Source: an uncultured Trichococcus sp.
Lineage (GTDB): Bacteria; Bacillota; Bacilli; Lactobacillales; Aerococcaceae
DNA: 64,000 nucleotides
Assembly (NCBI RefSeq): GCF_963667775.1
Contig: NZ_OY764015.1
Coordinates: forward strand, 1,133,168 to 1,197,167
Reading direction: 5' to 3'
Part shown: positions 15,385 to 30,699 of the stretch, one piece after another
Layout of the letters: each line of letters starts with the position of its first letter
How positions within the stretch are numbered: position 1 is the first letter of the stretch
Notes under the pieces: generated by a model
Told to the model about the DNA's origin: nothing
The model's database searches: none
The model's input: only the letters and a program-made list of their open reading frames with translations
Made by a program: the position numbers and the translations under genes

Positions 15385-16212
15385 CTAATATAATTTTTCG
15401 ATGACCGCATCTGACAACGCAAAGGTGTGCTCCGCTGCCGGAAACGCGCCGCTTTTCACTTCAGATATATAGTCTTCGATGGCGTTCTCCATCTGCGGTC
15501 CTATTTCTGCATAACGCTTGACGAATTTCGGCGTGAAATCGGAATAGAGTCCCAGCATGTCCTGATAGACCAACACTTGGCCGTCGCAGCCGTTCCCGGC
15601 GCCGATGCCGATTGTCGGAATCGAAATGCTTTGTGTGATCAGTTCAGCCAGCTTGGCCGGGATGCATTCGAGCACCACCGCAAAGGCCCCTGCCGCTTCG
15701 ACAGCCTTCGCCTGCTCGATCAGACTACGCGCCGCTTCCTCATCTTTGCCTTGGACCTTGAATCCGCCGAAAGCATTGACGGATTGCGGCGTCAAACCGA
15801 GATGCGCCATGACCGGTATGGAAGCTTCCACGATTGCCTTGATCTGCGGACAGACTTCAAGACCACCTTCCAGTTTGACTGCCTGTGCCCGGCCTTCCTT
15901 GATCAGCCTGCCGGCATTGACGACCGCATCATAGACGGAAGTCTGATAGGACATGAACGGCAGGTCACTTACGACCAACGCATCCTTTACTCCTCTGGCG
16001 ACAGCTCTGGTATGGTGGATCATGTCCTCCATCGTTACCGATAAGGTGTCTTCATAGCCCAACATCACCATCCCCAACGAATCCCCCACCAGCACCGAGT
16101 CGATGCCCGAAGCATCGATCAGTTTGGCAGTGGAATAGTCGTAGGCAGTCAGCATCGTCAAACGCTCATTCTTCTGCTTGGCATTGCGGAAAGTCAAAAC
16201 CGATTTCTTCAC
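15385..16212 (-). CDS. panB: Ketopantoate hydroxymethyltransferase
   Basis: Transfers a hydroxymethyl group from methylene-tetrahydrofolate to 2-ketoisovalerate, the first committed step to pantothenate. The family motifs [28 protein letters not shown] and the [20 protein letters not shown] loop are present. Start choice: an ATG at 16257 overlaps the predicted -10 box and is probably not transcribed. An ATG at 16224 directly abuts the Shine-Dalgarno sequence. The GTG at 16212 (giving [12 protein letters not shown], a normal panB start) has GGATGAGG at 6 nt, so it is preferred at 276 aa. It heads the panBCD operon. Confidence 0.93.
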
Positions 16213-16257
16213 CCGAATCCTCATCCTCTCTTCATCTAAATATAATATATTATTCAC

Positions 16258-16286: not shown

Positions 16287-16537
16287 CTACTTTTTGAAAC
16301 TGGAAGCCCTACCAATAAAGCCAATTGTCACGACAACTGTATATTTCGATTGGACTGCAGCAGAAATAGGCTTGGACAAAAAAATAACATTTAGATAGCC
16401 GACCACCTACCGACTTCAGTAGAGTGAATTCATTATATTCAGTGATAATAAAGTAATAAGGTTAGCTTCAATAAAATAAGGTATAATCTATTGGTCGAAG
16501 AGTTTCTCTTTAAGAACAAGAAAAGTAGGTGAACAAA

Positions 16538-16675
16538 ATGGGGAAATATCAATTGGATTACAAAGGTCAGGCAGCTGTGACGAAGTATCATGAAAAACAG
16601 ACGCCTGCCAAATTTGATAAAAAGCAGCAACTTGAAAAAATACGTGCGGATTATTTAAAAAAGAAGCAAAAATAA
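16538..16675 (+). CDS. Small basic protein, 45 aa, unknown function
   Basis: A short open frame with a good start: AGTAGGTG lies 9 bases before the ATG. The product begins MGKYQLDYKG and ends KKKQK. It is rich in Lys and Gln, with a predicted helix in the second half and no membrane segment. A TATAAT-like box lies about 50 bp upstream, at the GGTATAATC stretch. It is just outside the island, between panB and a decayed transposon gene. I do not recognise the family. Small basic proteins like this are often missed by annotation. Confidence 0.6.
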   Translation: MGKYQLDYKGQAAVTKYHEKQTPAKFDKKQQLEKIRADYLKKKQK

Positions 16676-16682
16676 ACAGGTG

Positions 16683-16918
16683 AATTGCATCAGCACTATA
16701 TCCTCCAAAACGATAACATCAAAATCACGAACCAACTTCGTCGTCAGCTTATGCAGGCGGTCTTGCCGTTGGTTCTTTTCTTTTCGGTGGATACGCGCGC
16801 GTTGCTCTTTGATCCGCTGATAGTTTTGGCTTCTGACAGCGTGGTGCCGTTTTGCTTGTCTTTTGCGCACGACAGGCCACGCGTCTTTCCCAATACAAAC
16901 CTTTCGGTGCGAGTAACG
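16683..16918 (-). pseudogene. Decayed TnpB fragment (IS200/IS605 family)
   Basis: The minus-strand translation contains QNYQRIKEQRARIHRKEKN and RLHKLTTKLVRDFDVIVLED, which match the conserved helical and RuvC-like stretch of IS200/IS605 TnpB proteins (typically ..KNYxKxRxKVARLHxKIxNxRxDFLHKLSTxLV..). The N-terminal half, the downstream RuvC and zinc-finger parts and any tnpA are absent. The fragment also appears to shift frame near its start. It is a remnant only. It lies just outside the left island boundary. Confidence 0.7.
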
Positions 16919-16920
16919 AC

Positions 16921-16984
16921 AAAAAACAACTCTCAGAAAGTCATATGAATCCCTTCATATCAACCTTTCCAAGAGTTGTTTTCT
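16921..16984 (-). terminator. Long imperfect hairpin, probable original tRNA-Ala terminator
   Basis: AAAACAACTCT (16923-16933) pairs with AGAGTTGTTTT (16972-16982), with further internal pairing (CTTT/AAAG and ATATGAA/TTCATAT). On the minus strand it is followed by TTTTTTG. It lies 8 bp beyond the 14-bp copy of the tRNA-Ala 3' end. If the island is removed it falls directly after the tRNA gene, so it is probably that gene's ancestral terminator. Confidence 0.7.
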
Positions 16985-16992
16985 TTATTTCT

Positions 16993-17006
16993 ATGGAGAC
17001 GATGGG
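16993..17006. other. Left attachment site (attL core)
   Basis: ATGGAGACGATGGG is identical to 30623-30636, which spans the 3' end of the tRNA-Ala gene. The two copies are in direct orientation and bracket the AT-rich, IS-laden segment. This is the usual signature of site-specific integration into a tRNA 3' end. Confidence 0.75.
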
Positions 17007-17158
17007 TTGTTATTTATCATATGATATATATCCTTCATTCCCGTGTGAATTATAACGAGGAATGCGAAAAACGTTGATATAAAAGGAATTTTCTGGCTAT
17101 TCCTATTGAATTCCCACACTTTCCACGTTATAATTATAACGTGGAAAGGCGTGATTTT

Positions 17159-17332
17159 ATGAGTTTAGTATATGTAACCAACAAGAAGAACGGCACTACC
17201 TATGTTTACGAATCAACCAACTATTGGGATAAAGAAAAGAAACAGTCGCGCAGCAAGCGTGTCTGCATAGGAAAACTGGACGAAGCTGGGAACCTGGTTC
17301 CCTCTAAGCGATTGCTATGCCGCCGGCATTAG
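17159..17332 (+). pseudogene. Truncated transposase start (duplicate)
   Basis: A copy of the first part of the IS transposase, with the same ribosome-binding site and MSLVYVTNKK start. It reads identically to the full gene for about 50 residues. A single base deletion in the SKRLA codons shifts the frame to a stop after CRRH, and the following sequence is cut off at the second left end. A 57-residue peptide could be made but has no catalytic residues. Because it keeps the putative DNA-binding N-terminus and its own promoter, it could in principle act as a repressor (inference). Confidence 0.8.
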
Positions 17333-17459
17333 CACCTGCAAAGCAAGGGCCGGTACCATCCACCGTCATGAAACGAAGCTTCTACCCTTCATTCCCGTGT
17401 AAATTATAACGAGGAATGCAAAAAACGTTGATATAAAAGGAATTTTCTGGCTATTCCTA

Positions 17460-17501
17460 TTGAATTTCCGCACTTTCCACGTTATAATTATAACGTGGAA
17501 A
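17460..17501 (+). promoter_or_regulatory. IS transposase promoter overlapped by a 28-bp palindrome
   Basis: TTGAAT (17460-17465), a 17-bp spacer and TATAAT (17483-17488) form the promoter. The -10 box lies inside a perfect 28-bp palindrome at 17474-17501 whose half (TTATAACGTGGAAA) repeats the inner part of the element's own terminal repeats. The duplicate copy is at 17120-17147. This suggests transposase autorepression. Confidence 0.7.
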
Positions 17502-17512
17502 GGCGTGATTTT

Positions 17513-19111
17513 ATGAGTTTAGTATATGTAACCAACAAGAAGAACGGCACTACCTATGTTTACGAATCAACCAACTATTGGGATAAAGAAAAGAAACAGT
17601 CGCGCAGCAAGCGTGTCTGCATAGGAAAACTGGACGAAGCTGGGAACCTGGTTCCCTCTAAGCGGTTGGCTATGCCGCCGGCATTAGCACCTGCAAAGCA
17701 AGGGCCGGTACCATCCACCGTCATGAAACGAAGCTTCTACGGAGCGACCTATCTGTTTGACAAAATCGGAGAACTGCTTGGTGTTACAGCCGATCTAAAA
17801 GCTTGCTTTCCTGAAAGCTATAAGCAGATACTCTCGATTGCCTACTTCTTGATTTTGGAAGATCGCAATACGATGCTTCGTTTTCCAAAGTGGGATCGCA
17901 CCCATTCCCATCCTTACGGCAGCTGTATTCCCTCGCAAAGAAGCAGCGATCTGTTTGCCTCGGTTACGGAAGAAGCTAAAAATCGTTTTTTCAGCCTGCA
18001 GGCTAAGCGACGGACGGAGAATGAATATTGGGCTTATGATACTACCAGTGTTTCCTCCTATTCAGAGTCTCTTAAGCAAGTCAAATACGGTATCAACAAG
18101 GACCACGATCCGCTTGCGCAGATCAATCTTGCTTTGTTGTTTGGTGAAGAATCTGGATTGCCGTTTTACTACCGCAAGTTAGCAGGCAATATAAGCGATG
18201 TCAAAACAGTGAAGGACTTGCTTGCCGATCTAGGCAATCTTGGTTTTAGCAAGGTCAAACTCGTAATGGACCGAGGGTTTTACAGCAAGGAAAATATCGA
18301 TGCCTTGTACCAAAATCATTTGAAATTTTTGATGGCCACAAAAGTATCCCTTAAATACGTGCAGGAAGAACTGAACAAGGTTCGAGATAACATCCGCACA
18401 CGCGCTAATTACAATGCCAGCTACCAACTTTACAGCCATACTGCAACCATAGACTGGGAGTATTCACAGAAACGGCCGTACAAAGGCGATGTGATTGAAG
18501 GGAAACGGCGGATGTACCTGCATCTTTATTTTAGCGGTGAAAAAGCACTGGAGCACGAGAACCGTTTCAATGCGCTTCTTGATCGGATCGAAGCAGAACT
18601 AGTTTCCGGGAACCGCAAAGCGGAACACGAAAAGCAGTACGTTAAATACTTCGAAATCACTTCAACACCAAAACGCGGGACAAAGGTAACCCCCAAACAA
18701 AAAGCCATTACCCAAGCGGAAAAAGACTACGGATTTTTTGCCCTCATCAGCAATGAAATCAAGGATCCCATCGCCGCTTTAGATTTGTACCGTAACAAAG
18801 ATATCGTTGAGAAAGCCTTTGGAAATCTTAAAGAGCGGTTGAATTTACGGCGCACAGCCGTTTCATCAGAAAGTTCGCTTGAAGGGAAATTATTCGTGCA
18901 GTTCATTGCATTGATCTATTTATCGTACATCAAAAAGCAGATGTCCGAAAAAGGGCTGTATAAAAATTATACGATGCAGGAATTACTGGACGAATTGGAT
19001 GTCATTGAAGCATTTGAAAATCCAGGCAGTGCATTGCGAGTGGGTGAGGTTACGAAGAAGCAGTCGCAATTATATAACACCTTAGGTGTTGTGCCCCCGA
19101 CCACGTTATAA
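17513..19111 (+). CDS. IS1634-family DDE transposase
   Basis: A transposase of 532 aa for the surrounding insertion sequence. The acidic residues of the DDE centre are probably in AYDTTSVSSYS (about residue 180), KLVMDRGFYS (about 255) and the YRNKDIVEKAFGNLK block (about 425), which has the Y-R-E-K spacing of IS4-like enzymes. Its start follows GGAAAGGCG. The frame could begin six codons earlier without such a site. The stop codon lies inside the right terminal repeat. The gene is intact, so the element may be active. It is clearly related to the second IS transposase at 28115-29725, but the terminal repeats differ. Confidence 0.92.
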   Translation: MSLVYVTNKKNGTTYVYESTNYWDKEKKQSRSKRVCIGKLDEAGNLVPSKRLAMPPALAPAKQGPVPSTVMKRSFYGATYLFDKIGELLGVTADLKACFPESYKQILSIAYFLILEDRNTMLRFPKWDRTHSHPYGSCIPSQRSSDLFASVTEEAKNRFFSLQAKRRTENEYWAYDTTSVSSYSESLKQVKYGINKDHDPLAQINLALLFGEESGLPFYYRKLAGNISDVKTVKDLLADLGNLGFSKVKLVMDRGFYSKENIDALYQNHLKFLMATKVSLKYVQEELNKVRDNIRTRANYNASYQLYSHTATIDWEYSQKRPYKGDVIEGKRRMYLHLYFSGEKALEHENRFNALLDRIEAELVSGNRKAEHEKQYVKYFEITSTPKRGTKVTPKQKAITQAEKDYGFFALISNEIKDPIAALDLYRNKDIVEKAFGNLKERLNLRRTAVSSESSLEGKLFVQFIALIYLSYIKKQMSEKGLYKNYTMQELLDELDVIEAFENPGSALRVGEVTKKQSQLYNTLGVVPPTTL

Positions 19112-19142
19112 TTTTTTGGGAATCTAGGATATATTTAATAAG

Positions 19143-19293
19143 GCTTTACATAGCGTTTGTTATACAGAAGCAAACGAAAAAATAGTTAATAGAATTAAAT
19201 GCGTTTAACAAATTACATGGTCAATTACATGGTCAAAAAATCCGTAGGGCTATGGGTGTAACTTATTCAGAAATGGACAGGTTATTTTTTTGA
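19143..19293 (+). pseudogene. Frameshifted tail of a tyrosine integrase
   Basis: Immediately right of the IS, the plus strand encodes YTEANEKIVNR in one frame and LNAFNKLHGQLHGQK in the next. Removing one A joins them into a tail that resembles the C-terminus of phage-type tyrosine integrases (..YTHxxEKxVxRLNxF..). It ends at TGA 19291-19293. The catalytic body is missing, so the island can no longer excise by itself. The tail also contains a tandem ACATGGTC repeat, likely integrase arm sites. The family call is by eye and moderate. Confidence 0.5.
19213..19240 (+). repeat. Arm-type repeat near attL
   Basis: A 28-bp segment with tandem TTACATGGTC motifs matches 30530-30557 at 25 of 28 positions in the same orientation. 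With the IS and one target duplication removed, it lies about 103 bp inside attL. Its partner lies 65 bp inside attR. That is the spacing expected of integrase arm-binding sites. Confidence 0.55.
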
Positions 19294-19320
19294 ACCACGT
19301 CAGCAGTCGTCTTGCTGATC

Positions 19321-19521
19321 CTATTTGAATAAATCCCAAAATGAGAATGTTGTTTTCTTATAAATTTTATTGTACGCTGCACGTTTGGGATCTCTGATCC
19401 ATCCCATGCCTTTTTTACCATAAAGCGGATTTATGGAACTCTTGACCGCGCGTTTTACTCGTCCGGTTGTTCTGGCTTTGATTGATCGTTTAATACTTGG
19501 TGTACGCATTCCGAATTTCAT
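19321..19521 (-). CDS. Small basic protein of phage/mobile-element type
   Basis: A very basic protein of 66 aa (MRTPSIKRSIKARTTGR..., with NPLYGKKGMGWI and PKRAAYNKIYKKTT). Short proteins with this arrangement of Lys/Arg helices followed by a GKKGMG turn are, as far as I recall, common in phages and integrated elements of Firmicutes, but the function is unknown to me. The longer frame begins at 19578. AAAGGA lies 8 bases before the ATG at 19521, so that start is used. The sequence around it is AT-rich, like the rest of the island. Confidence 0.65.
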   Translation of the reverse strand: MKFGMRTPSIKRSIKARTTGRVKRAVKSSINPLYGKKGMGWIRDPKRAAYNKIYKKTTFSFWDLFK

Positions 19522-19705
19522 TGCATTCAGTCCTTTGGAGTTCGAATAGATTTCTAATTTATTATACTTCTTTGGCAAGAACTAGCCTTATATTCATTTC
19601 GGAAACATTAACCAATAAATTTACCATCTGCGAATCTGAAATAGCGCGAGACTGCTTGAAATTCGCAAGTATCCGGCTATTTGTAGCGCACTTTGAGGTG
19701 TTTTT

Positions 19706-20887
19706 TTATAGCTCAGACTTACTGTTTTTAATACCTTCTTCATAATAACTCACTAATTTTTTCCCAATTTCTGTTGCTTTACTTTCACTTGATCCTTGTC
19801 CTGATGATTTGAATAGTTTTTGAATTATCCCTTCATTTTTGACCTCTTTGTCCTCTTTATCCTTTTTATCTAAATACTTTTGCATTATTGTAAACGATAC
19901 TATTAGTTGTTCTTCTTTTAACTTATCACTATTCTTATAAATATAATCTAACAACTTCATTAATGCACTAAATCCAACTGCCTTTTTTGTAAGATAACCT
20001 TCATCTTCCCAAATATCTTTAAATACTTTTGAGAAAGCATTAAAAAAATTGATCATTATTTTAGCTACTATTGCTGGTTCATTTTTGCTAAAGTAAATTC
20101 TAAAAATTTTATTTGAATTTTCTTTAATATCTTTATTTGTTTGAATATTTAAATTATCTTCTTCAATGTTAGAAGTAATCCTATCTGTAATTTTTTTTGC
20201 TATAGTCCCTTGAGAAATAAACTCTGTAGGTTCTAATTTACGACCTAACATCCTAATTGAATGAAAAAATGGAGAATTTTCATTTTCATTCAATATCTTT
20301 GTTACAACGTTAGAAAAAGATTGTACAGTATATTTATCTGATCCATCATACATTATTCCAAATAGTTGATGAATTAGAGACTTATCTACAGGTCGTTGAT
20401 TAGCATTGATTGTAACAAATATAGACGCAGCAGTCGCTTGGTCAGCATCTTCATAAATTATTACTGGTAAGATAAAATCTTTACTATTGTTAATATTATT
20501 AAACTCGTGATATGATTTTATACCTTCAATTCTATGTTGACCATCTATTATTGAAAAAGGATTGCCTAGTTCTTCTATCATATCTTTACTAATATCAATG
20601 ATAAGCTTTGTCAAACCTACCCCTTGCCCGTCTTTGATAAAATCCGAATTAAGAGACAAAATAATCGGTGTTGGAAAAATAGCATTATCATTTTCACAAT
20701 ATTTAGCAATATTTTTCACTCTAATTGGATCTAAAAATCTTTGAACTCCATCTTTACTTTCCGATAATCTAATTATATTAGAGTACTTATATATATCAGA
20801 TGCCTTCATATAATTAATGTAAAAACTATAGTTATCCGTTTGACCTTGATTGATGTGCAACGCACTAGATAAATCGATTGTGCTCAA
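19706..20887 (-). CDS. DGQHR-domain protein (DndB-like)
   Basis: A cytoplasmic protein of 393 aa carrying the diagnostic DGQHR motif at residues 115-119 (FSIIDGQHRIEG). The upstream RFLDPIRVKNIAKYC segment and the downstream ITVNANQRPVDKSLIHQLFG segment are typical of the DndB/DGQHR superfamily. DndB belongs to DNA phosphorothioation systems, where it binds DNA and regulates the dnd genes. None of dndA, C, D or E (or sspBCD) is in this window. It follows a four-helix membrane protein gene by 17 bp, so the two form an operon. It is AT-rich, unlike the flanking core genes. A stand-alone defence or regulatory role is inferred. Confidence 0.82.
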   Translation of the reverse strand: MSTIDLSSALHINQGQTDNYSFYINYMKASDIYKYSNIIRLSESKDGVQRFLDPIRVKNIAKYCENDNAIFPTPIILSLNSDFIKDGQGVGLTKLIIDISKDMIEELGNPFSIIDGQHRIEGIKSYHEFNNINNSKDFILPVIIYEDADQATAASIFVTINANQRPVDKSLIHQLFGIMYDGSDKYTVQSFSNVVTKILNENENSPFFHSIRMLGRKLEPTEFISQGTIAKKITDRITSNIEEDNLNIQTNKDIKENSNKIFRIYFSKNEPAIVAKIMINFFNAFSKVFKDIWEDEGYLTKKAVGFSALMKLLDYIYKNSDKLKEEQLIVSFTIMQKYLDKKDKEDKEVKNEGIIQKLFKSSGQGSSESKATEIGKKLVSYYEEGIKNSKSEL

Positions 20888-20904
20888 TTAGTTTTCCTCC
20901 CTTC

Positions 20905-21609
20905 CTAAATTTCTTTATTTCCAAGACTATCTTGAAAACTTGGATCATCCGTCTTATCACTTAGCTCATGAACTATATGTTCTGTTTTTTGCATACCTTT
21001 GATTACTTCAGCGGCTGAAGTAATCTCTAATACTGGACTATTCTTTATTATTGAATCTGCTAATCCATATATGATTTGAACTGCTATATATAAACAAATC
21101 TGTATTTTCATTCCTATTGAATTTAAAAGGGCCTTTTCTTCAATTTTTCCATAGTAAAATGCACCCATAAAAGTTAAAAGAAATACAATTAATATTATTG
21201 GTAATAAATGATTCAAATCTTTTATTTGTTTTTTTTCATTATTCTCTTGGACTGATGCTCCATCTAAATAACTTGATATAATTGTAGCTAGGATGCTAAT
21301 ACTAGTACTGAATAATACTCCAGATTTTATTTTATCCATAAAATTAACCGTAAATCTAGATTGATCATTTTGAAGTATAGGAATTGAGAATAATATTATT
21401 GGGAAAATAAAAGTTAATAACACGTTTATGATAACTTTTGAATAAGAGAATGTTTGTATTTTCTTAAGTGTATTTACTTTCAGGTTATTAATACATTTTT
21501 GTATTTGTCTAGGTAACTTTAGTATCAGATTATAAATTTCACTCAATGTTTCTTTCCAAATATCTGAACATTCTTTAAAGAATTTAGTTCTAAACACTTT
21601 AAATTTCAC
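20905..21609 (-). CDS. Four-helix membrane protein paired with DGQHR protein
   Basis: A membrane protein of 234 aa that I cannot assign to a named family. It has a positively charged, helical N-terminal cytoplasmic region (1-57). Four hydrophobic segments follow at about 58-78, 93-112, 136-156 and 168-187, and then a hydrophilic acidic tail of about 45 residues. No enzymatic motif is visible. It is translated just upstream of the DGQHR gene and shares its low GC. A small membrane protein next to a nucleic-acid-binding partner is a common layout for abortive-infection modules, so a pore-type effector is a reasonable guess, not a demonstrated role. Confidence 0.7.
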   Translation of the reverse strand: MKFKVFRTKFFKECSDIWKETLSEIYNLILKLPRQIQKCINNLKVNTLKKIQTFSYSKVIINVLLTFIFPIILFSIPILQNDQSRFTVNFMDKIKSGVLFSTSISILATIISSYLDGASVQENNEKKQIKDLNHLLPIILIVFLLTFMGAFYYGKIEEKALLNSIGMKIQICLYIAVQIIYGLADSIIKNSPVLEITSAAEVIKGMQKTEHIVHELSDKTDDPSFQDSLGNKEI

Positions 21610-21836
21610 TCTTTAATCCCTCCTTATCTATTTTAAAAATAAGCTTATTCAGAATGTTCTTTAAAAATTCACTATTACCCGAATAATCCATACAATTTCA
21701 AACAGCTATTACCAGCACTACTATAACCGCATTTTCCACTTATTCGATGAACATTCGTGGAGTGTGAACCAGTAGTAAATAAATATATTGATATAATAAA
21801 GTTTCGGTGTAAGTTCATTAAAATTATGAAGAACCT

Positions 21837-22002
21837 CCTTTATTCCAAAATTATTATAAAGTGGTATTGAAAAATCCCATTCAGTCTTTTCCCATCAACC
21901 TTATTATAAAAAATTATAACAAGATTTACTTTGAATTTATAGGAAAACATTGATTTATAACTCTTTTAATGTTCCACGTTATAATTTAAGCGGGAATCCA
22001 GG
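21837..22002. mobile_element. Probable 166-bp MITE related to the first IS
   Basis: The left end CCTTTATTCC...TTATAAAGTGG (21837-21864) agrees with the first IS's left end at about 19 of 28 positions. The right end (21974-22002), read on the minus strand as CCTGGATTCCCG...TTATAACGTGG, is an even closer terminal-repeat match. The flanks are GAACCT and TAACCT, an imperfect 6-bp target duplication. There is no open frame. It looks like a non-autonomous derivative mobilised by the related transposase. Confidence 0.6.
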
Positions 22003-22072
22003 TAACCTAGGTTATTTTTGTAAAGTGATGCTACAAAAATAACTATCATTTATTTAATCATAAGGATACAAT

Positions 22073-25000
22073 CTATATCTCCCCCGCCATCAACTCAGCC
22101 TGCCTCACAACTGTCTCCACAGCCAATTTTGCTAAGTCTGGTGGATAACCATACTCCCTTAGCAATCTTCTCACGGTAATCCGCATTTTCGCTCGGGCGG
22201 ACTCTTTTCGATTCCAGTCAATCGTCATATTTTCTTTGATTACTTTTGTAAGTTCATGTGCAATTGCACGAAGTGTTTCATCGCCTAGCACTTCTTTAGC
22301 GGTCATGTGATCCGCGAGCGCATCATAAAAAGCAACTTCATCTTGGCTTAGACCTAAGTCCTCTCCTCGCTCTGCCGCTTTACGCATCTCTTTGGCTATT
22401 TCAATCAATTCTTCAATAACTTTGGAAGTTTGGATGCTGCGTTTATTGTACTTATCAATGGAATTTTTCAACATCTCTGAGTATTTCTTAGCTTGGACGA
22501 CGTTCATTCTTTGAACGGATTTGACTTTTCCTTTCAACAAACGCTCCAATAACAGCACTGCGATATTCTTTTGCGGTAAAGCTCTGACATCGGCCAAAAA
22601 TTCATCGGAAAGTATAGAGATATCAGGATTTTCCAAGCCTAATGACTCATATATGTCCACCACACCTTCGGAAATAATCGACTTCGATAACATTTGTTGA
22701 ATGCGACTATCTACTTCTTTCTGAGATAGTTTCGGTTTATCCCCTGGGCTTATAATCTTAATTAATCCTGCTTTAACGGCTTTAAGGAAACCAATTTCAG
22801 CATTTAATTCTTTCGCTTCTGGTTCCATTGCGCAAAGAGCATAGGCTTTCGATAATTCTGTCACTAAATCCAAGAAGCGTTTTCGTTCCTCTTTTCCTAA
22901 TTCCAAAATAAAGTCAACGGTTTCATTTAATACTTTGAATCGTATGGACTGTTTCTCGGATTGGAAATCAGAATAGTTGTGTTTATACAGCATCTCTTGA
23001 ATCAAATCATACTTTTCTAACATCAGATCAACAGCCACTTGGGTATCGATACCTGCCTGTTTGCGATCGTCTGTTGTGTATTCTTGCAGAGCTTCTTTTA
23101 AGCTTTCAGCGATACCGATATAATCTACAATTAATCCACCCGGCTTATCTTTGAAAACACGGTTCACACGAGCGATTGCTTGCATCAAATTGTGCCCTTT
23201 CATCGGTTTATCTATGTACATCGTATTCAAGGCTGGCACATCAAAACCTGTCAGCCACATATCGCGGACGATAACAATTTTTAAGGGGTCATCATTATCT
23301 TTCATGCGTTTTGCCAAGTTTTCTCTTCGACTTTTATTACCTATGAATGGCTGCCACTCCAAAGGGTCGCTTGAAGTACCTGTCATGACAATTTTAATAA
23401 CACCTTTATTGTCATCATCCGAATGCCATTCAGGACGTAACGCAATAATTTCTTTGTATAGTTCAATAGCAATCCGACGTGACATAACCACAATCATCGA
23501 CTTCCCGAACATCGCCTCTTGTCGCGTCTCATAATGTTCAATAAAATCCTTAGCAAAGGTCTTCAAGCGGCTTTGTGCACCTGCTACTGCTTCCAGACGG
23601 CTCCATTTTTGCTTCGTTTTAGTTTGGTAATCGGCATCCTGTTCTTCAATAATGTCTTCTACAATATCATCCACTTGAACACCTTCCGGAAGATTAAGCG
23701 GGATGATTCGGCTTTCATAATAAATTTTTACCGTTGCGCCGTCCTTAACGGCTTGGGTCATATCGTAAATGTCGATATAATGCCCAAAGACGGCCTGCGT
23801 ATTTTTATCGGCACTCGCAATCGGCGTACCCGTAAATCCGATATAAGAGGCATTTGGCAAAGCATCTCTTAAATGCTTGGCATAACCATAATTTACGTTA
23901 CTTTCGTCGTTGTCATAATTAATTTGTCCAGAGAAGCCATATTGGGAACGATGCGCCTCATCCGCTATAACGATTACATTACGACGCTCCGTTAATACTG
24001 GCATCTGACCTTCATTTTCTTCGGGATTAAATTTCTGCATCGTCGTAAAGACGATACCACCTGATTGCACACTCAATAAATTGCGCAACTCTCCCCTACT
24101 ATCTGCTTTTTTTGGCGTTTGCCTCAAGATGTCGCTTGATTGTCCAAAGGTCGCGAACAGTTGCTCATCTAAGTCATTGCGGTCCGTCACCACTACAATT
24201 GTCGGATTATCTAGCGCCTGGATCAGTTCTCCTGCATAGAAAACCATGGAGAGACTTTTCCCAGATCCCTGAGTATGCCAAACAACCCCGATTTTTTGAT
24301 TTCCATTCATCGCAACCGCACGTTTAGTTTCTTCCACCGCTTTTTTCACTGCATAATATTGGTGATAGGCGGCTAAAATCTTGATGATATTTTCTCCATC
24401 GTCTTTGAATAAAATAAAGTCGCGAATCAAATCCAAGATAACATCCGGTCTGCACATGCCTTTAATTAAAACTTCTAGCTGCGCTTGGGCTGTTTTTGCT
24501 TCAGCTGCACCATCCGTTGTTCGCCAGGTCATGAAACGCTCTTCATTTGATGAAATCGTCCCTGCCTTAGCATTCCAACCATCCGAGATAATCAATACTT
24601 CATTGAAGTTAAATAAACCAGGAATCGCTTGTTTATAGGTCTGGAATTGATTATATGCTTCAGTGGTCCCAACTTTTTCATTTGAAGAACTCTTCAATTC
24701 AAAAATGACCAGAGGAAGGCCGTTGATGAACAAAATGATATCTGGTCGTTTGTTTTCCTTTCCTTCGATCACCGTGAATTGGTTCACCGCTAAAAATTCA
24801 TTATTCTGTGGATGCTCAAAATCAAATAACCATACTTTCTTTGTCACATTGCGATTTTCTTCCCTAGCAGCAATGTCCACACCATCAGTTACCATCTTGT
24901 GAAAGGTACGATTATTGACAAGCATTTGTGGATTCTGGGGAATCGTAATCTTCCGAACCGCTTCATCAATGACCTCATCAGAAACATCATTAATACGTTG

Positions 25001-25177
25001 TAAGGCGAATTTCAAACGATTCTTTAAAACTACTTCACTGAAATCTTCCCGTTCGCTGTTTACACCATCTGGAGCAAGTTCGGAGCCATTATGAACTTCA
25101 TAGCCAATATCCTCTAACCATTCTAAAGAAGCTTGTTCCAAATCAGGTTCTAAAAAGCTGTAATCATTCACTGTCAT
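22073..25177 (-). CDS. hsdR: Type I restriction enzyme, R (motor/nuclease) subunit
   Basis: The ATP-dependent translocase and endonuclease of a type I restriction-modification complex, 1034 aa. The N-terminal PD-(D/E)xK nuclease site is visible as RPDIILF (D146) and IFELKS (E160, K162). Superfamily 2 motor motifs follow: WHTQGSGKS (Walker A, about 296-304), VTDRNDLDEQL, IADEAHRSQYG (DEAH box) and GFTGTP. A helical C-terminal region binds the methylase core. Its ATG overlaps the hsdS stop by 4 bp. The gene looks intact, so restriction should be active. Confidence 0.96.
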   Translation of the reverse strand: MTVNDYSFLEPDLEQASLEWLEDIGYEVHNGSELAPDGVNSEREDFSEVVLKNRLKFALQRINDVSDEVIDEAVRKITIPQNPQMLVNNRTFHKMVTDGVDIAAREENRNVTKKVWLFDFEHPQNNEFLAVNQFTVIEGKENKRPDIILFINGLPLVIFELKSSSNEKVGTTEAYNQFQTYKQAIPGLFNFNEVLIISDGWNAKAGTISSNEERFMTWRTTDGAAEAKTAQAQLEVLIKGMCRPDVILDLIRDFILFKDDGENIIKILAAYHQYYAVKKAVEETKRAVAMNGNQKIGVVWHTQGSGKSLSMVFYAGELIQALDNPTIVVVTDRNDLDEQLFATFGQSSDILRQTPKKADSRGELRNLLSVQSGGIVFTTMQKFNPEENEGQMPVLTERRNVIVIADEAHRSQYGFSGQINYDNDESNVNYGYAKHLRDALPNASYIGFTGTPIASADKNTQAVFGHYIDIYDMTQAVKDGATVKIYYESRIIPLNLPEGVQVDDIVEDIIEEQDADYQTKTKQKWSRLEAVAGAQSRLKTFAKDFIEHYETRQEAMFGKSMIVVMSRRIAIELYKEIIALRPEWHSDDDNKGVIKIVMTGTSSDPLEWQPFIGNKSRRENLAKRMKDNDDPLKIVIVRDMWLTGFDVPALNTMYIDKPMKGHNLMQAIARVNRVFKDKPGGLIVDYIGIAESLKEALQEYTTDDRKQAGIDTQVAVDLMLEKYDLIQEMLYKHNYSDFQSEKQSIRFKVLNETVDFILELGKEERKRFLDLVTELSKAYALCAMEPEAKELNAEIGFLKAVKAGLIKIISPGDKPKLSQKEVDSRIQQMLSKSIISEGVVDIYESLGLENPDISILSDEFLADVRALPQKNIAVLLLERLLKGKVKSVQRMNVVQAKKYSEMLKNSIDKYNKRSIQTSKVIEELIEIAKEMRKAAERGEDLGLSQDEVAFYDALADHMTAKEVLGDETLRAIAHELTKVIKENMTIDWNRKESARAKMRITVRRLLREYGYPPDLAKLAVETVVRQAELMAGEI

Positions 25178-26379
25178 ACCTCCTCTTCAATAGGTAATTC
25201 AATTTCTCCTGATAGCAGTTTTGGCAGTAGTGCATCCCTTATTTTCTGTAGAGATCCATTTTCCAATTGAAAATTTAATAATTTATTCATCACAGGATCA
25301 ATAATATGATTAAAGTTTTGTAATTCAATCGAATTAGGAACAATCAATTTTATTTTTTCAAACTCTGTTTTGTTAAGGTTCAGTGTGGTGCTACCCCCAC
25401 TTCCCAGTTCTTTAATTAAATTTGATTTACTTCGCAAGTTTAAAAATAAAAAATACCGATTTTCTTCAGTTGGTATTATTGAATTAATTTGTTGATTTGT
25501 TTGGCTTTTGTATACATTCATACTAACCAATCCAGGTGTAGCTATACAACTTACACATATTGATTTTTCAGGTAACAGTTTTCCTTTGTTAATGCCTTGT
25601 TTACTTAAATAAGACGCCGTTTCATCAACAAAATTCTTGCCGTGCATATCTGGAATTTTGATAAAAGGGATGTCTGATCCATAATTGTCTTTATCTTTGG
25701 TTGAAGGAGTTTTACCTGTTACTACCTCTTTTGCTATTTCAGAAATTTTTTTTATTTTCCACCCCTCAGGAATTACCCCCAATTCACTATCAATCATCTT
25801 GCCACCATTTGATTTATATGGATTCCCATTTTCATCAGGAAATTCGAAATCAACAAACCAATGTTTGAAAATTGCTTGTGCCATATTTTCAAGGGCTTTG
25901 TTCATTTTATTATTGACTTCAATTTTTTCATCTAGGTTTGACAAGATGCTTACTATACTTCCCATTTCAGATAGATTGCTTGGCACCTTAATAGTGAGGT
26001 TATCTAATATAGGTTTTGTCAAAAATTTTGTAGCACTCCCGACTGATAGTCTTTGCAAATTATTTAATTGCAAACCTATAGCATAATATAAGAATTTATT
26101 ATTAACAATCTCAGCATCATTCGTATTTATTATATAAGTCCTTTGATATGCATTGAATTTTCCATTGTAGTGCTTTATTGCAAACACACCATTTGCATTA
26201 TTTCCAGCTAATATAACAGCATCTTGATTGAACGAGTAATTATCTATTTGCAACGTTTGAGGAGAGCATGTAAAAAAAGGATACTTTCCATTTTTAACAG
26301 CTGCATTAGAGTTTAATTTTCCAGTTGTATAATTAGCGATTTCTGATAATTTATAGGATTTCCACTCATTAAAACTCAT
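25174..26379 (-). CDS. hsdS: Type I restriction-modification specificity subunit
   Basis: Determines which DNA sequence the complex recognises. It is 401 aa from the chosen ATG, with two target-recognition domains (about 1-150 and 200-350), each followed by a helical spacer. The conserved spacer phrases [22 protein letters not shown] and [18 protein letters not shown] occur at the expected places. The frame extends 13 codons upstream, but GGGGGGATT precedes the ATG at 26379 (MSFNEWKS). It overlaps hsdM by 11 bp and hsdR by 4 bp. There is no second hsdS fragment or inverted repeat, so specificity switching is not indicated. Confidence 0.94.
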
Positions 26380-27880
26380 ACCCAATCCCCCCAAGATTCT
26401 TCCTGATTTCATCTTCAAGGTGGTGTGACTTCGTAAAGAGTTCCGCTAATTCCGCTGTCATATTCTCCATTTTTTCTTCAAACAGTTCACTATCATCTTC
26501 CAATTCTTCTAAACCAACATATCGCCCAGGCGTCAAGATATAATCATGCTCCTGCACTTCTTCTAAAGTAGCCGTCTTGCAGAATCCAGCGATATCTTCA
26601 TAGGGTAAAGTATTTGTTCCTCTCCACGCATGAAAAATAGATGATATGTAATGAATATCCTCTTCAGATAATTCTTTATGGGTCCTGTCTACCATTTCAC
26701 CTTTTTTACGAGCATCAATAAATAAGATTTCACCTTTTCGGTTAAGACGTTCTTTATTTTTTGTCACGAACCAGAGACATACGGGGATTTGCGTTGAATA
26801 GAATAATTGTCCCGGTAAGGTAACAATACATTCCACAATATCCTCTTCAACAAGATTTTTGCGAATTTCCAACTCAGCCGATGTGCTGGTAGACATTGAT
26901 CCATTTGCTAATACAAATCCTGCTGTACCAGAAGGGGCTAATTTTGAAACCATGTGTTGAATCCAAGCATAATTTGCATTTCCTGTTGGTGGAACACCAT
27001 ATTTCCAACGAACATCTTCGGTTAAACGTTCACCACCCCAATCAGAAATATTAAAAGGAGGATTTGCAAGAATGTAATCTGCTTTCAAGCTCTTATGTAA
27101 ATCATTATGGAAAGTATCTCCGTTATTTGGACCTAAATCGCCATCTATGCCACGAATAGCTAAGTTCATCTTCGCTAGCTTCCAAGTAGTAGGATTGGAT
27201 TCTTGACCATAAATCGATAGATTACCGATATTCCCTTGATGTTCCTCCACAAATTTTTCTGATTGAACAAACATACCTCCAGATCCACAACAAGGGTCAT
27301 AGACGCGGCCACTGTATGGTTCCAACATTTCTACCAACAACTGAACGACATTGCGCGGCGTATAGAATTCTCCGCCACCTTTGCCTTCTGCGCTGGCAAA
27401 CTTACTCAGGAAGTACTCATATACACGTCCTAAGATGTCTTGTTCTTGGCTAGTTGTGTCTCCAACTTTGAATGTGAATTGATCGATTAACTCACCTAAA
27501 CGTGTTTTATCTAAATCGTATCTTGCAAAAGTTTTAGGTAAAACATTCTTCAAAGATGTATTTTCCTTTTCGATCGAAATCATAGCATGATCGATGATTT
27601 GTCCGATTTCAGGCTTTTTAGAATTTCGGTTAATGTATCCCCATCTAGCTTCTTTCGGAACCCAAAAGATATTATCCGCCAAGTATTCATCGCGGTCCTC
27701 TTCATCCGCATATTCATCTTGCAATAATTCTTGATGTTTCTCTTCAAACGCATCCGAAATGTATTTTAAGAATAACAGTCCCAATACCACATTTTTATAT
27801 TCCGATGAATCCATACTCCCACGAAGTTTGTCCGCCATTAACCATAATTTTTCTTCAATTCCCAAAGCTGCACTTGCCAT
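26369..27880 (-). CDS. hsdM: Type I restriction-modification methyltransferase subunit
   Basis: The N6-adenine methyltransferase of the type I complex, 503 aa. The helical N-terminal domain is followed by the S-adenosylmethionine motif DPCCGSGG (195-202) and the catalytic NPPF (273-276, in [11 protein letters not shown]). It is the first gene of hsdM-hsdS-hsdR and overlaps hsdS. The order and overlaps imply one transcript from the AT-rich gap at 27881-28091. It is part of the tRNA-Ala island, so the system was acquired by transfer. Confidence 0.96.
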
Positions 27881-28114
27881 CTAAAAATCACCTTTTCCTC
27901 TTCGATTAGTACTATTTTATGTCTTTTAATCAAATTAACAGTTATTCCCCTATGGAAATTCTTTTTACGTCGAAAATTTAATTATATTATATCAAATTTA
28001 ATTATTTAAAAATGCTTTATTAAAAATAAAAATTTCTAATGAGGCTGTTTTGTAGTGACTAGGCCACATATTTACTCCGTTCGCCTTATTACCTGGATTC
28101 CCGCCAACACATAA

Positions 28115-29725
28115 CTATGCAGGCGGGGTGATGCCCAGTGCTTCGTAAATTTGTTTTTGCTTTGTAAGAACCTCACCGACCCTAAGGTCGTAGCCTGGAT
28201 ACTCAAAACATTCTATAATATCAAGTTTATCCAAGGCGGACTGAATCGTATAGTTTTGATAAAGTTCTGCTTCATGCATGTGTTTTTTGAGATAAGACAA
28301 ATATATGAGCGCGACAAATGCAACGAAGAGTTTTCCGTCAAGGCTCTTCTCAGATGACACCAATAGGCGGCGAAGATTCAATCGATCTTTAATATTACCA
28401 AAGGCTTTCTCGATGAGATCTTTGTTTCTGTATAATTCCAGTGCGGTCATAGCATCCATCTTTTCGTTGGATATCAAAGTGAAGTAGCCATAATAGCGCT
28501 TTGTCGCCTTCACGGCTTCATCTATCACAGTAACCTGTAAGCCACGAATCGGAGTTTCTTTAATTTGGAAGTACTGCTTGTAGAATCGTTCATGTTTCGC
28601 AACACGTTTGCCACTCAGAATCTCCTTCCGCATGGCCATAAGTTTACGATCGAAGTTGGTTTCATCTTCAGCAAACTTATCGATGTTGAAGTAAATGTGT
28701 AAATAAACCCGCTTTTTATCTGTGAGTACATCCTTCTTGTAGGGGCGTTCTTGCTTATATTCCCATTCTGAAAGGACAGTCTTGGCATACAATTCATGCT
28801 GCTCATCAAAGTTCTCGAAAGAACGGAAGTTGTCATAAACGGTATCGATTGCTTTACGTGCAAAGGAATTACTTGTCTGAATCGCAACAATGAATTTCAA
28901 GTGCTCCTTAAGAAGGCCATTGACATTAGCCTCGCTATAAAACCCACGGTCCATGACCAGTTTAACTTTATCGAAGCCGAGAACTGCGAAATCCGCTAGA
29001 AGATTTTGAACAGTCCGCACATCCGGAATATTGCCGGCTAGCTTTCGATAATAGAAAGGAAGACCAGATTTTTCACCGAATACGAGTGCCAAGTTAATTT
29101 GAGGCAGTCTATCGTCTTCCTTGTTTTTGCCATATTGAGCTTGGCGAAGCGTTTGGGAATAACTGGACACTGAGGTAGTATCATAAGCCCAGTATTCATC
29201 TCCGGAGCGACGTTTCTCCTGAAGAGTAAAGAACTTTGTTCTTTCTTCTTCGGAAATATCTGAAAAAAGTTCGCTACTGCGTTGTGAAGAAATATTTTTG
29301 TCATAGGGATGCTTATGAAGTGTGCTCCATTTTTCAAAACGAAAAAGCGGGGATTCAGATTCAAGAATCATATAGTAAGCAATGGATTGGATTTGTTTGT
29401 AAGTAGCAGGAAAGCATTGCTTAAGATCTTCTGTTAGACCAAGTTTCTTACCAATTTCATCCAGCAGATATGTGGCACCGTAAAACCTGCGGCTAGCCAT
29501 TTCGATAGGTACCGGTCCTGGTTTCCTTGAATTAGCAGCTTCCTGGTCCTCCTTATGTTTTCTGCCACGACCATCGGTCGGAATGATTTCTCCTGTATTA
29601 GGATCACGCTTGCCGATCAGTGTGCGCTTCGCCCGGGGTTGTTTCTTTTCCTTATCCCAATAGGATATGGATTCGTAAACATAGGTAATGCCACTTCGTT
29701 TATCAAACTGGTTTATAATAGCCAT
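28115..29725 (-). CDS. IS1634-family DDE transposase
   Basis: A transposase of 536 aa for the second insertion sequence. It is homologous along its length to the first IS transposase (shared ITYVYESISYWDKEKKQ start, EYWAYDTTSVSSYSQ, KLVMDRGFYSEAN and YRNKDLIEKAFGNIKDRLN blocks), but divergent enough to be a separate element with different terminal repeats. It has an extra basic segment (GRGRKHKEDQ) near residue 57. AGGAGGTGG lies just before the ATG. The frame is intact and ends inside the element's left end region, so the IS may be mobile. Confidence 0.93.
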   Translation of the reverse strand: MAIINQFDKRSGITYVYESISYWDKEKKQPRAKRTLIGKRDPNTGEIIPTDGRGRKHKEDQEAANSRKPGPVPIEMASRRFYGATYLLDEIGKKLGLTEDLKQCFPATYKQIQSIAYYMILESESPLFRFEKWSTLHKHPYDKNISSQRSSELFSDISEEERTKFFTLQEKRRSGDEYWAYDTTSVSSYSQTLRQAQYGKNKEDDRLPQINLALVFGEKSGLPFYYRKLAGNIPDVRTVQNLLADFAVLGFDKVKLVMDRGFYSEANVNGLLKEHLKFIVAIQTSNSFARKAIDTVYDNFRSFENFDEQHELYAKTVLSEWEYKQERPYKKDVLTDKKRVYLHIYFNIDKFAEDETNFDRKLMAMRKEILSGKRVAKHERFYKQYFQIKETPIRGLQVTVIDEAVKATKRYYGYFTLISNEKMDAMTALELYRNKDLIEKAFGNIKDRLNLRRLLVSSEKSLDGKLFVAFVALIYLSYLKKHMHEAELYQNYTIQSALDKLDIIECFEYPGYDLRVGEVLTKQKQIYEALGITPPA

Positions 29726-29737
29726 TCTGCCACCTCC

Positions 29738-29767
29738 TAGTTATGTATAGTATAACACATAACTAGG
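29738..29767. promoter_or_regulatory. Palindrome at the second IS transposase promoter
   Basis: CTAGTTATGT and ACATAACTAG, 10 bp apart, lie just upstream of the transposase ribosome-binding site. The half-site repeats the inner part (ACATAACTA) of this element's own terminal repeats, and a TATACT -10 box falls between the halves. The arrangement parallels the first IS. Confidence 0.65.
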
Positions 29768-29860
29768 GTATGACGATGACGAGAGAGTTTAAAATCCATT
29801 AATATCAACGGTTTTAGCTTGTTTTTATTAAATCATAGTTAGGTGTTTCGGGAATGCAGG

Positions 29861-30175
29861 TTATTAACTGCATCTATCATAGTTCCTGATAATCAAAAAT
29901 CGCCAAGGGATAGTTATTTAGAAGACGCTCCTTTCAGCAGAAATTCCTACAGCATCAGCTGGCAGCACCTATTTTGAGATTTACTATGTCCACGGCATAG
30001 CCCCTCACGGTTCAAATGCTGTTTATCGCCGATATCCACACGTTTAACCCCCTCTTGCGGCTCCCCATTCTCCCCCTTTTTGCCTACTATGATGAAAAAC
30101 GTCCTGGAGGGCATTTTTTGCCTAATTCTGCAATATGAGGATGCCATTGATGCTGCTCCACTTTATTTTGCACAC
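29861..30175. other. Island segment without a convincing gene
   Basis: About 315 bp between the second IS and a terminator. It is less AT-rich than the neighbouring island. The minus strand has an open frame (29947-30147) whose product shows no family I recognise and has no ribosome-binding site. It may be the remains of another mobile gene. Confidence 0.4.
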
Positions 30176-30216
30176 AAAAATGAGTACCTAATTTTAGAAA
30201 TTAGATACTCATTTTT
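30176..30216. terminator. Bidirectional terminator
   Basis: A 19-bp stem with one mismatch (AAAAATGAGTACCTAATTT with its complement) and a 3-nt loop has T-runs on both strands. It ends the 74-aa gene on the minus strand. Confidence 0.85.
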
Positions 30217-30220
30217 GTTG

Positions 30221-30445
30221 TTAAATTTGAAAGATTCCGTCACTCGTGATTATCTCTTTTGCGCGCTCCTCGGTTATCTCCTCAAAATCTGCAGAAGCGT
30301 TCATGATAATTTCTTCGTACCAATAATCGGATGCTTCCCAGGCTTTGCTCTCCGGAACATACTTAAACATCCAGTCACCGTATTTCAAAAGGAAATTTTT
30401 CCGATTCGTCCTCGTCGTTATATAATATTTTGTTTTTCTCATCAT
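30221..30445 (-). CDS. Hypothetical protein, 74 aa
   Basis: A small cytoplasmic protein starting MMRKTKYYITTRTNRK, rich in aromatic residues (WMFKYVPESKAWEASDYWYEE) with an acidic C-terminal helix. GGAAGAG lies a few bases before tandem ATGs, so the start could be either. I do not recognise the family. The stop is 4 bp before a strong terminator, which argues for a real gene. It is the last gene of the island before the right attachment site and is not obviously related to the hsd genes. Confidence 0.6.
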   Translation of the reverse strand: MMRKTKYYITTRTNRKNFLLKYGDWMFKYVPESKAWEASDYWYEEIIMNASADFEEITEERAKEIITSDGIFQI

Positions 30446-30529
30446 TTCATCTCTTCCTTCTAGCTAGCCTCTTTAAGTTATTGATACACCCGTGCTTATG
30501 AATATTTATGCATATATGAATTTTTAGTC

Positions 30530-30557
30530 TTACATGGTCCATTGCATGCTCAAAAAA
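30530..30557 (+). repeat. Arm-type repeat near attR
   Basis: Matches 19213-19240 at 25 of 28 bases in the same orientation and lies 65 bp inside the right attachment core. Its terminal A-run doubles as the T-tract of the terminator at 30551-30612, so part of the match may be coincidental. Confidence 0.5.
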
Positions 30558-30612
30558 ACAGACCTTAGAAAACACAGAAATGGCTCTGTATCAAATTTCC
30601 TAGGGTCTGTTA
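30551..30612 (-). terminator. Present terminator of tRNA-Ala
   Basis: On the minus strand AACAGACCCTAGGAAA pairs with TTTTCTAAGGTCTGTT (small bulges), with an inner CAGAG/CTGTG-like hairpin, and is followed by TTTTTTT. It is island-borne and replaces the terminator now stranded at 16921-16984. Confidence 0.75.
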
Positions 30613-30622
30613 ATTTAATTTG

Positions 30623-30636
30623 ATGGAGACGATGGG
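30623..30636. other. Right attachment site (attR core) in the tRNA-Ala 3' end
   Basis: Direct 14-bp repeat of 16993-17006. It covers the acceptor 3' strand and the start of the T-stem. Identity ends one base further in, where the tRNA continues with G and the left copy has T. Confidence 0.75.
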
Positions 30637-30696
30637 GCTCGAACCCACGACCTCTTGACTGCCAGTCAAGCACTCTCCCAACTGAGCTACGCCCCC
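30624..30696 (-). tRNA. tRNA-Ala (GGC)
   Basis: The minus strand folds as a cloverleaf of 73 nt. The acceptor GGGGGCG pairs with CGTCTCC and includes the G3-U70 pair that identifies alanine tRNAs. The D-arm is GCTCAGTTGGGAGAGT, the anticodon loop is CTGGCAG with anticodon GGC, and the T-loop is GTTCGAG. Discriminator A is present and CCA is not encoded. The 3' end is the integration site of the island. Confidence 0.95.
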
Positions 30697-30699
30697 AAA

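Follow-up and report, generated by a model that had tools for sequence, protein, structure and literature searches.

A tRNA-Ala accretion array in Trichococcus with a predicted terminator hairpin in each unit

It is established that genetic elements targeting tRNA genes rebuild the gene on insertion, as set out in the Islander work (PMC4383910). The tRNA and tmRNA islands of that source resemble the locus described here in their element-rebuilt tRNA, the displaced fragment at the far end and their tandem arrays. However, the word "terminator" is absent from its main text, while here each element is predicted to replace the terminator as well. In ICEKp1 and related ICEs (PMC13023037), the terminator of the tRNA is likewise carried off by insertion and ends up beyond the element, at its far end, and stem-loops between the tRNA and int act as a partial terminator, a position shared by the hairpins reported here. 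The ICEKp1 int is co-directional and is read from the tRNA promoter through these attenuating stem-loops, whereas the int genes at our locus are convergent and separated from the tRNA by a complete-looking terminator. The Dehalococcoides ssrA islands (PMC3146451) also stand in tandem behind one RNA gene, some units lacking integration genes, but they depend on a serine recombinase, and neither "terminator" nor "hairpin" occurs in the main text of that report. PICIs at fis (PMC10111431) share an att identity block at the end of the gene with a rho-independent terminator after it, and the identity may reach into this terminator; their target is a protein gene, whereas here whole terminator types are swapped and identity stops at or near the core. 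No description of an attP that regularly includes a replacement terminator was found in the literature covered, from which subscription papers were largely absent, and a search for Trichococcus together with genomic island returned no paper with Trichococcus in its title or abstract.

The tRNA-Ala(GGC) target site and the adjoining segment

The window, i.e., the whole 64-kb stretch of DNA analysed, contains the following features between panB and the tRNA gene.

15385..16257, minus: panB, chromosomal flank (Pfam scan)
16377..16402, minus: surviving 3' half of a predicted type-C terminator, panB-proximal and probably ancestral (comparison with relatives)
16529..16675, plus: 48-aa ORF; the surrounding DNA recurs in relatives
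16655..16870, minus: TnpB fragment, IS200/IS605 type (best match 41 bits, far under the curated cut-off, as expected for a fragment)
about 16921..16991, minus: predicted type-N terminator hairpin, the 16921-16984 hairpin (fold, model, relatives)
16993..17006, minus: far core copy, exact repeat of the tRNA-side core
17024..19127, plus: IS1634-family element (IS_a), separating the arm repeats of the far end from the core there (family search, repeats)
19213..19234, minus: paired far-end arm-type repeats, GACCATGTAA twice, at -124/-112 from the far core after arithmetic subtraction of the IS length
19321..19578, minus: 85-aa ORF with a 92% identical counterpart in the type-A unit (1.65 kb) of genome G010
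19706..20887, minus: DGQHR-domain protein, DndB/DpdB-like (family searches)
20905..21609, minus: 234-aa protein with no family match in the searches
22073..25177, minus: HsdR, type I restriction enzyme (family searches)
25174..26418, minus: HsdS, type I specificity subunit (family searches)
26369..27880, minus: HsdM, type I methyltransferase (family searches)
28115..29725, minus: IS1634-family transposase of the second IS (family searches)
30221..30445, minus: 74-aa ORF typical of type-A units, without family match (tblastn matches in 8 other genomes)
30530..30551, minus: pair of arm-type repeats, GAGCATGCAA / GACCATGTAA, +85 and +97 relative to the core (repeat search)
30552..30622, minus: predicted type-A terminator hairpin adjoining the tRNA, element-carried (fold; hairpin model, 74.3 bits)
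30623..30636, minus: tRNA-side copy of the core, reading CCCATCGTCTCCAT in the tRNA sense; attL-type end (repeat search)
30622..30697, minus: tRNA-Ala(GGC), integration target, with the core within its 3' end (ARAGORN, Rfam tRNA)

The 14-bp direct repeat named in the initial annotation is exact: ATGGAGACGATGGG has exactly two perfect copies in the 64-kb window, at 16993-17006 and at the tRNA 3' end (30623-30636), 13,630 bp apart. The other six of its eight matches each carry 3 mismatches, and shuffled sequences gave about five matches at up to 3 mismatches; by arithmetic, an exact 14-mer would recur about 5e-4 times in 64 kb on both strands. A chance origin of the repeat was rejected, with two exact copies against other matches at shuffle level. 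As is characteristic of tRNA-integrated islands, the tRNA gene and the displaced 3' fragment have the same orientation, and integration specific to this site, the 3' end of the tRNA, is well supported. Arm-type repeats also lie on both sides of the core (+85/-124 once IS_a, which has an internal 354-bp tandem duplication, is subtracted), at offsets like those of four units in relatives. Matching offsets on both sides occurred in 4/10 units tested (+92/-128 and +89/-129 for B1 and B2 of G007, +92/-128 in G003 and +88/-129 in G009); an exact-match test gave no convincing shared arm repeats in six of the ten, including the window's unit with the IS in place. The integrase by which such islands are also recognised was not found: of the 10 larger ORFs compared with Pfam, 8 of which lie inside the island, none matched an integrase, no integrase remnant was found in the island, and the nearest PF00589 match in this genome lies ~170 kb away.

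With regards to its contents, the segment had been described as AT-rich and as carrying IS elements, restriction genes and unknowns. The inventory was confirmed by two IS1634-family transposases, HsdR/S/M, a DGQHR/DndB-family protein and several unknowns, and the AT-richness holds for the middle (26-42% GC at 19-29 kb) but not for the island edges (41-43%); the left flank has 41-54% GC. That the 13.6 kb arrived as one island is contradicted by the type-A unit of G010, which has both edge genes within 1.65 kb and ~218 bp where the window has ~10.4 kb, and a single 13.6-kb insertion was rejected on this comparison. An HsdR remnant of 34 aa (91%) is kept in the type-A unit of G011. The window's segment has the look of a small type-A unit that lacks an integrase and has grown by gaining type I R-M, DGQHR and IS1634 genes.

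We also considered a composite transposon, in which the two IS1634-family copies, lying in opposite orientation near both ends, would have moved the segment and the 14 bp would be a target duplication. This reading has next to no probability: the copies align piecewise only (66, 70 and, over 53 bp, 87%), they do not abut the repeats (17 bp separate the left repeat from IS_a, and ~0.9 kb the other transposase gene from the right repeat), and the 14 bp are the 3' end of the tRNA and form the borders of units in relatives, too, where neither transposase was found at E<=1e-5.

Arrays and terminator types in Trichococcus relatives

The locus was present in all 13 same-genus genomes compared (Trichococcus, as inferred; the window's included). 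In them, the interval from tRNA-Ala(GGC) to panB is an accretion array, each unit of which starts with a core and its own hairpin of ~60 nt. Sorting by eye gave the hairpin types A, B, C, N and D, found directly behind the tRNA in 5, 3, 2, 2 and 1 genomes, respectively, and in 8 genomes additional cores come next, each with a hairpin of its own. Between neighbouring types, identity ends at or near the core, and whole terminator types are swapped.

Some array units have an integrase convergent with the tRNA. In G003, G007 and G009 it follows the first hairpin directly, and G007 has another behind the second; in G003, an integrase fragment follows the second hairpin. C-terminal integrase remnants were detected in four of the eight type-A units tested (G001, G002, G010, G011), while those of G003, G005 and G007, tested alongside the window's, showed none. 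The 12-kb type-B unit of G007 encodes int, an HTH repressor, a replication initiator/helicase loader, a small terminase and a tape-measure-like gene. PICI-like satellites carry int, a repressor, replication genes and terS in about 10-15 kb; the G007 unit resembles them and can be counted as one, differing by the tape-measure-like gene. None of these G007 genes was seen in the window's unit, whose scanned genes (R-M, DGQHR, IS and unknowns) do not make up a satellite of this kind.

The hairpins have the layout of intrinsic terminators, i.e., a stem followed by a T run in the tRNA sense: 27 fold at -15 to -35 kcal/mol, most of them with a T run. Type A (typed by eye) accounts for 7/25 hairpins of set A1. 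In the window, the tRNA-adjacent hairpin within 30552-30622 folds at -23.6 kcal/mol, and this predicted type-A terminator agrees with the earlier view that an island-borne terminator now follows the tRNA. The 16921-16984 hairpin, ending 8 nt from the far core, folds at -30.4 kcal/mol in the tRNA sense and has a T run; the correct-polarity hairpin proposed past the far core copy is real. A simple terminator scan listed neither of these bulged hairpins and found no excess in the region (10 terminators vs 10.8 in shuffles).

The initial annotation went further and took the 16921-16984 hairpin for the original tRNA-Ala terminator, displaced by a single 13.6-kb island, and predicted a state with tRNA, one core and this hairpin. 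Precisely this order was read in two genomes, G004 (90.7% over 86 bp) and G012 (89.4% over 94 bp, near a contig end), where a type-N hairpin stands directly behind the tRNA; that an older tRNA terminator was left at the far side is supported. However, the G004 junction is not an empty site: the type-N unit spans 0.4 kb, and between it and panB there is another core, with 1 mismatch, and then a type-C hairpin adjoining panB. Type N was seen in just 3/13 genomes, whereas the panB-proximal type C is whole in eight of the 11 genomes with the panB side seen, and its 3' half is preserved in the other three, window included. (The sequences of G006 and G012 stop short of panB, and in G003 the panB side is on a different contig from the tRNA.) The window's half, at 16377..16402, is identical to type C of G001 in 24/26 nt (score 42 vs a shuffle maximum of 25) and exceeded the shuffle maximum for six of the seven type-C hairpins compared, the exception being that of G004. 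The DNA at 16414-16697 was found whole or in large part in 7/12 other genomes, including the type-N unit of G004 (G006, G009 and G012 are partly visible). An original terminator at 16921-16984 is thus very improbable, and the hairpin is most likely a leftover of an earlier element. An empty site, with tRNA, core, type C and panB in direct succession, was seen in none of the 13 genomes, and the ancestral state was therefore inferred from the array ends away from the tRNA, where type C is probably the ancestral tRNA terminator.

We consider it highly probable that a lambda-like integrase family acts at the tRNA-Ala 3' end, that its elements bring their own terminator hairpin and that repeated insertion built the array. 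The attB of this tyrosine integrase family would be the 3' end of tRNA-Ala(GGC), and the attP of an element would read P arm repeats, core, terminator hairpin, P' arm repeats and int, the latter convergent with the tRNA. Recombination within the 14-bp core would rebuild the tRNA 3' end and place the element's hairpin behind it, and the previous hairpin and core would be pushed to the far side. Repeated insertion on the tRNA side would leave an array with one hairpin per past event, the oldest beside panB. The window would then hold at least two units (A, then an N remnant) before the truncated type-C terminator, the type-A unit having presumably lost its integrase and grown as IS copies, a DGQHR gene and a type I R-M system were added. 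The array, the hairpin types, the arm geometry, the covariation presented below and the relatives can be read directly in the DNA; the order of events is a probable reconstruction, as are the ending of tRNA (and int) transcription at the hairpins and the ancestral position of type C.

If so, the elements seem to renew tRNA termination besides the tRNA itself, and the hairpin type may offer another readable trace of earlier insertions, one that persists after decay of the core. The comparison with ICEKp1 suggests a split: a full terminator would come with elements whose integrase is convergent, and a leaky one would be kept by those with a co-directional integrase, which are transcribed from the tRNA promoter.

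Covariation and spread of the hairpin family

The outer stem of the hairpin family covaries. In the alignment, 90.7% of its cells were paired vs 78.7% with the 3' letters redealt, and double-changed cells numbered 33 vs 13.0 (0/500 shuffles as high); when the partner was shifted by one column, the pairing fell to 54-58%. Two of the five measures were unremarkable, namely both-side-change pairs (60/500 shuffles as high) and further pair types (184/500). Both halves of the hairpins co-segregate in this alignment, and recombination splitting them was not seen. With regard to an integron cassette array, in which an integron integrase joins cassettes at attC, the observations were this co-segregation and, in four units, arm repeats of phage-integrase type.

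Located about 23-35 nt from the core, the 5' strand GAAACGTTGATA is conserved beyond the needs of pairing, and such strand-specific conservation points to a possible unrecognised attP component. It is conceivable, though unlikely, that GAAACGTTGATA is a sequence-specific site common to integrases using different RNA genes, by which attP would contain a folded or strand-specific recognition element doubling as the replacement tRNA terminator.

The family also occurs behind ssrA and tRNA-Lys(CTT), and G006 and G011 have second copies of the core there. Some of these genomes have no PF00589 match nearby, and the panB-proximal copy belongs to the family as well, as would be expected if the hairpins were conserved host terminators that arose at several RNA genes and were merely captured by elements. 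Yet the window's genome has only five model matches at E<=0.01 (two at this locus and one each at tRNA-Lys, at ssrA and beside an integrase), so the hairpin is not a general tRNA terminator, and within the arrays hairpins recur together with their elements; capture of host terminators is accordingly improbable, and we retain the reading that the elements bring the hairpins themselves.

Outside the genus, the hairpin stands beside a tRNA called Ala, together with integrase relatives, in G066 and G067. Overall it is sparse there, with matches at E<=0.001 in 10/63 other genomes of the family, several of them away from RNA genes. Among 34/42 integrase-relative loci (the 8 taken as Trichococcus being omitted), L147 and L153 were the only ones with a model match next to the integrase (E<=0.01), and the matches in L128 and L130 lie elsewhere. 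The signal of AGAAACGTTGATA behind related integrases outside Trichococcus was weak, with p<=0.05 at 5/22 loci, all five being Companilactobacillus of similar sequence and effectively one lineage; the mean best mismatch was 3.55 vs 4.54 in shuffles and 4.45 in the upstream control (one locus with 128/150 bases). A gapped DNA pattern matched 82 stretches of viral contigs, but a hairpin was present in only one of the 80 loci tested (L231, a record matching T. pasteurii), and these matches were rejected as hairpin sites, nearly all being due to chance. For other integrases of the genus, a tRNA lay in the stretch at 3/35 loci, in each case on the 3' side of the integrase and convergent with it. 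Relatives of the integrase were found in 2438 phage records, the best-ranked being 46.5% identical.

Terminator hairpins behind tRNA-Ala

The window's source genome (G000; 3.3 Mb in one contig) carries the integration target on the minus strand:

30622-30697, minus strand: tRNA-Ala(GGC)

The initial annotation had placed a 13.6-kb island in this gene, with the original tRNA terminator, a hairpin at 16921-16984, displaced to the far side. Its observations were reproduced: the 14-bp core repeat has two exact copies in the window, spaced 13,630 bp apart (the other six of eight near matches each carry 3 mismatches), the hairpin at 16921-16984 is real and shares the polarity of the tRNA, and the segment contains two IS1634-family copies and type I restriction-modification (R-M) genes. 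The hairpin adjoining the tRNA is real as well, with polarity as for the tRNA. A DGQHR protein is also encoded in the segment, and none of 10 ORFs scanned in the window matched an integrase.

The tRNA region and its adjoining HAD gene were present in 13 of 13 Trichococcus genomes (G000 and G001-G012). Sorted by eye, five hairpin types were found directly behind the tRNA core.

Hairpin type directly behind the tRNA core, by genome
Type A: G000, G001, G005, G010, G011
Type B: G003, G007, G008
Type C: G002, G009
Type N: G004, G012
Type D: G006

The hairpin at 16921-16984 is of type N; window positions 16921-17006 match G004 at 90.7%, and 16913-17006 match G012 at 89.4%. Thus, the predicted pre-island state exists in relatives, but the hairpin found there is most likely not the original tRNA terminator. 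In G004, the type-N unit (a unit being an element that starts with a core and its own hairpin) spans 0.4 kb and is followed by a further core and a type-C hairpin, and because of this succession the terminator of the predicted pre-island state is, on sequence grounds, best read as an earlier element's own.

Array structure and unit ends

Additional cores accompanied by hairpins of their own, some of these cores with 1-2 mismatches, occur in G000, G001, G002, G003, G004, G007, G009 and G010; the shortest unit measures 0.4 kb (G004) and the longest 32 kb (G009). A whole type-C hairpin adjoins panB, the far chromosomal flank, in G001, G002, G004, G005, G008, G009, G010 and G011, and is reduced to its 3' half in G000, G003 and G007; the panB side lies beyond the sequence end in G006 and G012, and on a different contig from the tRNA in G003. 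The window's 3' half is identical to that of G001 at 24 of 26 nt (score 42, shuffle maximum 25), and six of seven comparisons with type-C hairpins exceeded the shuffle maximum, the exception being G004. The core adjoining type C is perfect in G002, G009 and G010, differs at 1-2 positions in G004 and G001, and is more decayed in the remaining genomes. Judged from these sequences, the type-C/panB end is read as the oldest part of the array. An empty site was seen in none of the 13 genus genomes.

Integrases lie directly behind the hairpin and are transcribed toward it in G003, G007 (twice) and G009, with open frames of 396-413 aa. An integrase C-terminal remnant (14-27 aa) survives in the type-A units of G001, G002, G010 and G011, and none is present in those of G000, G003, G005 and G007. 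When 10 units were tested by exact match for repeats common to both ends, four (G007 B1, G007 B2, G003 B1 and G009) shared clear repeats, located about +88 to +104 relative to the core on the integrase side and about -129 to -117 relative to the core that follows; none were found by this test in the other six, among them the window's unit tested with its IS still inserted. A window repeat of 28 nt and 89% identity places arm-type repeats at +85/+97 from the core, and arithmetic subtraction of 2104 bp of IS_a (IS1634 family, 17024-19127) places the far-side repeats at -124/-112. The left end of IS_a is tandemly duplicated (354 bp, starts at 17029 and 17383); a sister copy of 1750 bp (G000:C1:2782304-2784053) is without the duplication.

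Regarding cargo, the 1.65-kb type-A unit of G010 contains 74-aa and 85-aa ORFs that are the end genes of the window's type-A unit, the matching blocks being about 218 bp apart in G010 versus about 10.4 kb in the window. Since a 34-aa HsdR remnant (91% identity) remains in G011, a related R-M system was probably once present there and has since been lost. With repressor, replication and small-terminase genes, the G007 type-B unit looks like a phage satellite. An unusual tape-measure-like gene (694 aa, L043:9672-11756) lies within this 12-kb satellite-like unit. Copies of the DNA around a 48-aa ORF (window 16414-16697) occur within type-A and type-N units of 7 of the 12 other genomes, with 3 of 12 only partly covered; the ORF had no match in two family libraries.

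A hairpin family beyond tRNA-Ala

In an alignment of 25 hairpins, 6 of 9 outer-stem pairs had changed on both sides. Outer-stem cells were paired at 90.7% versus 78.7% after redealing the 3' letters (0 of 500 shuffles as high), while two of five covariation measures were unexceptional (60/500 and 184/500 shuffles). With hairpins located via core or position rather than via the model, and one taken per type from this alignment, the 5' strand held 1.70 bits per column versus 1.01 for the 3' strand, and was the more conserved in 945 of 945 combinations, which are not independent. A wider set of 18 sequences, biased and partly model-chosen, followed the same trend (1.40 versus about 0.6-0.9 bits). 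A plain terminator would not need such 5' conservation. Near related integrases outside the genus, the 5' motif was only weakly enriched.

A covariance model gave 57 matches at E<=0.01 in the 13 genus genomes. Stronger matches beyond tRNA-Ala stood behind ssrA and tRNA-Lys(CTT), and G006 and G011 also had displaced copies there; matches with low scores away from RNA genes probably include chance ones. In the ssrA region of G006 (C12:49000-68500), three family hairpins share one orientation and a fourth (54335) is inverted, which suggests an inverted unit. At E<=0.001, 23 of 76 family genomes had a match, 10 of them outside the genus. In two of these (G066, G067), a tRNA called as Ala, the hairpin and an integrase are arranged as in the genus, and G067 has one more core, hairpin and integrase at a distance of about 11 kb; several remaining matches outside the genus adjoin no RNA gene. 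A viral contig (IMG/VR UViG_2595698193) carries int, paired repeats, a family hairpin, an ssrA-type core and repeats again, which looks like a complete attP.

Excerpts of published work describe tandemly arranged ssrA islands of Dehalococcoides, which have a serine recombinase (PMC3146451), islands defined by tRNA fragments (Islander; PMC4383910), a putative stem-loop terminator straight after the integrase gene of phage Tweety (PMC2884959), and an identity block that may reach into the terminator in fis PICIs (PMC10111431). No description of a replacement terminator as a regular attP part was found in the excerpts searched.

For convergent integrase-RNA gene loci in general, 15 loci (16 rows) were compiled, a sample not unbiased, being selected for a tRNA or tmRNA facing an integrase. 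At the 13 loci measured, 69-119 nt separated the RNA from the integrase match, with one case of 242 nt. The 110 nt behind the RNA folded with z <= -2.0 versus shuffles in 14 of 16 rows, the exceptions being tRNA-Lys of G011 (z -1.5) and a Clostridiaceae MAG (z -1.0); at one locus (L141), a weak stem adjoins the tRNA. Elsewhere in G000 (C1:572200-575200), a convergent integrase lies beside a pair of tRNA-Arg(TCT) genes, which are spaced about 340 nt apart and are each followed by a separate hairpin; this may be an element that carries a complete copy of a tRNA.
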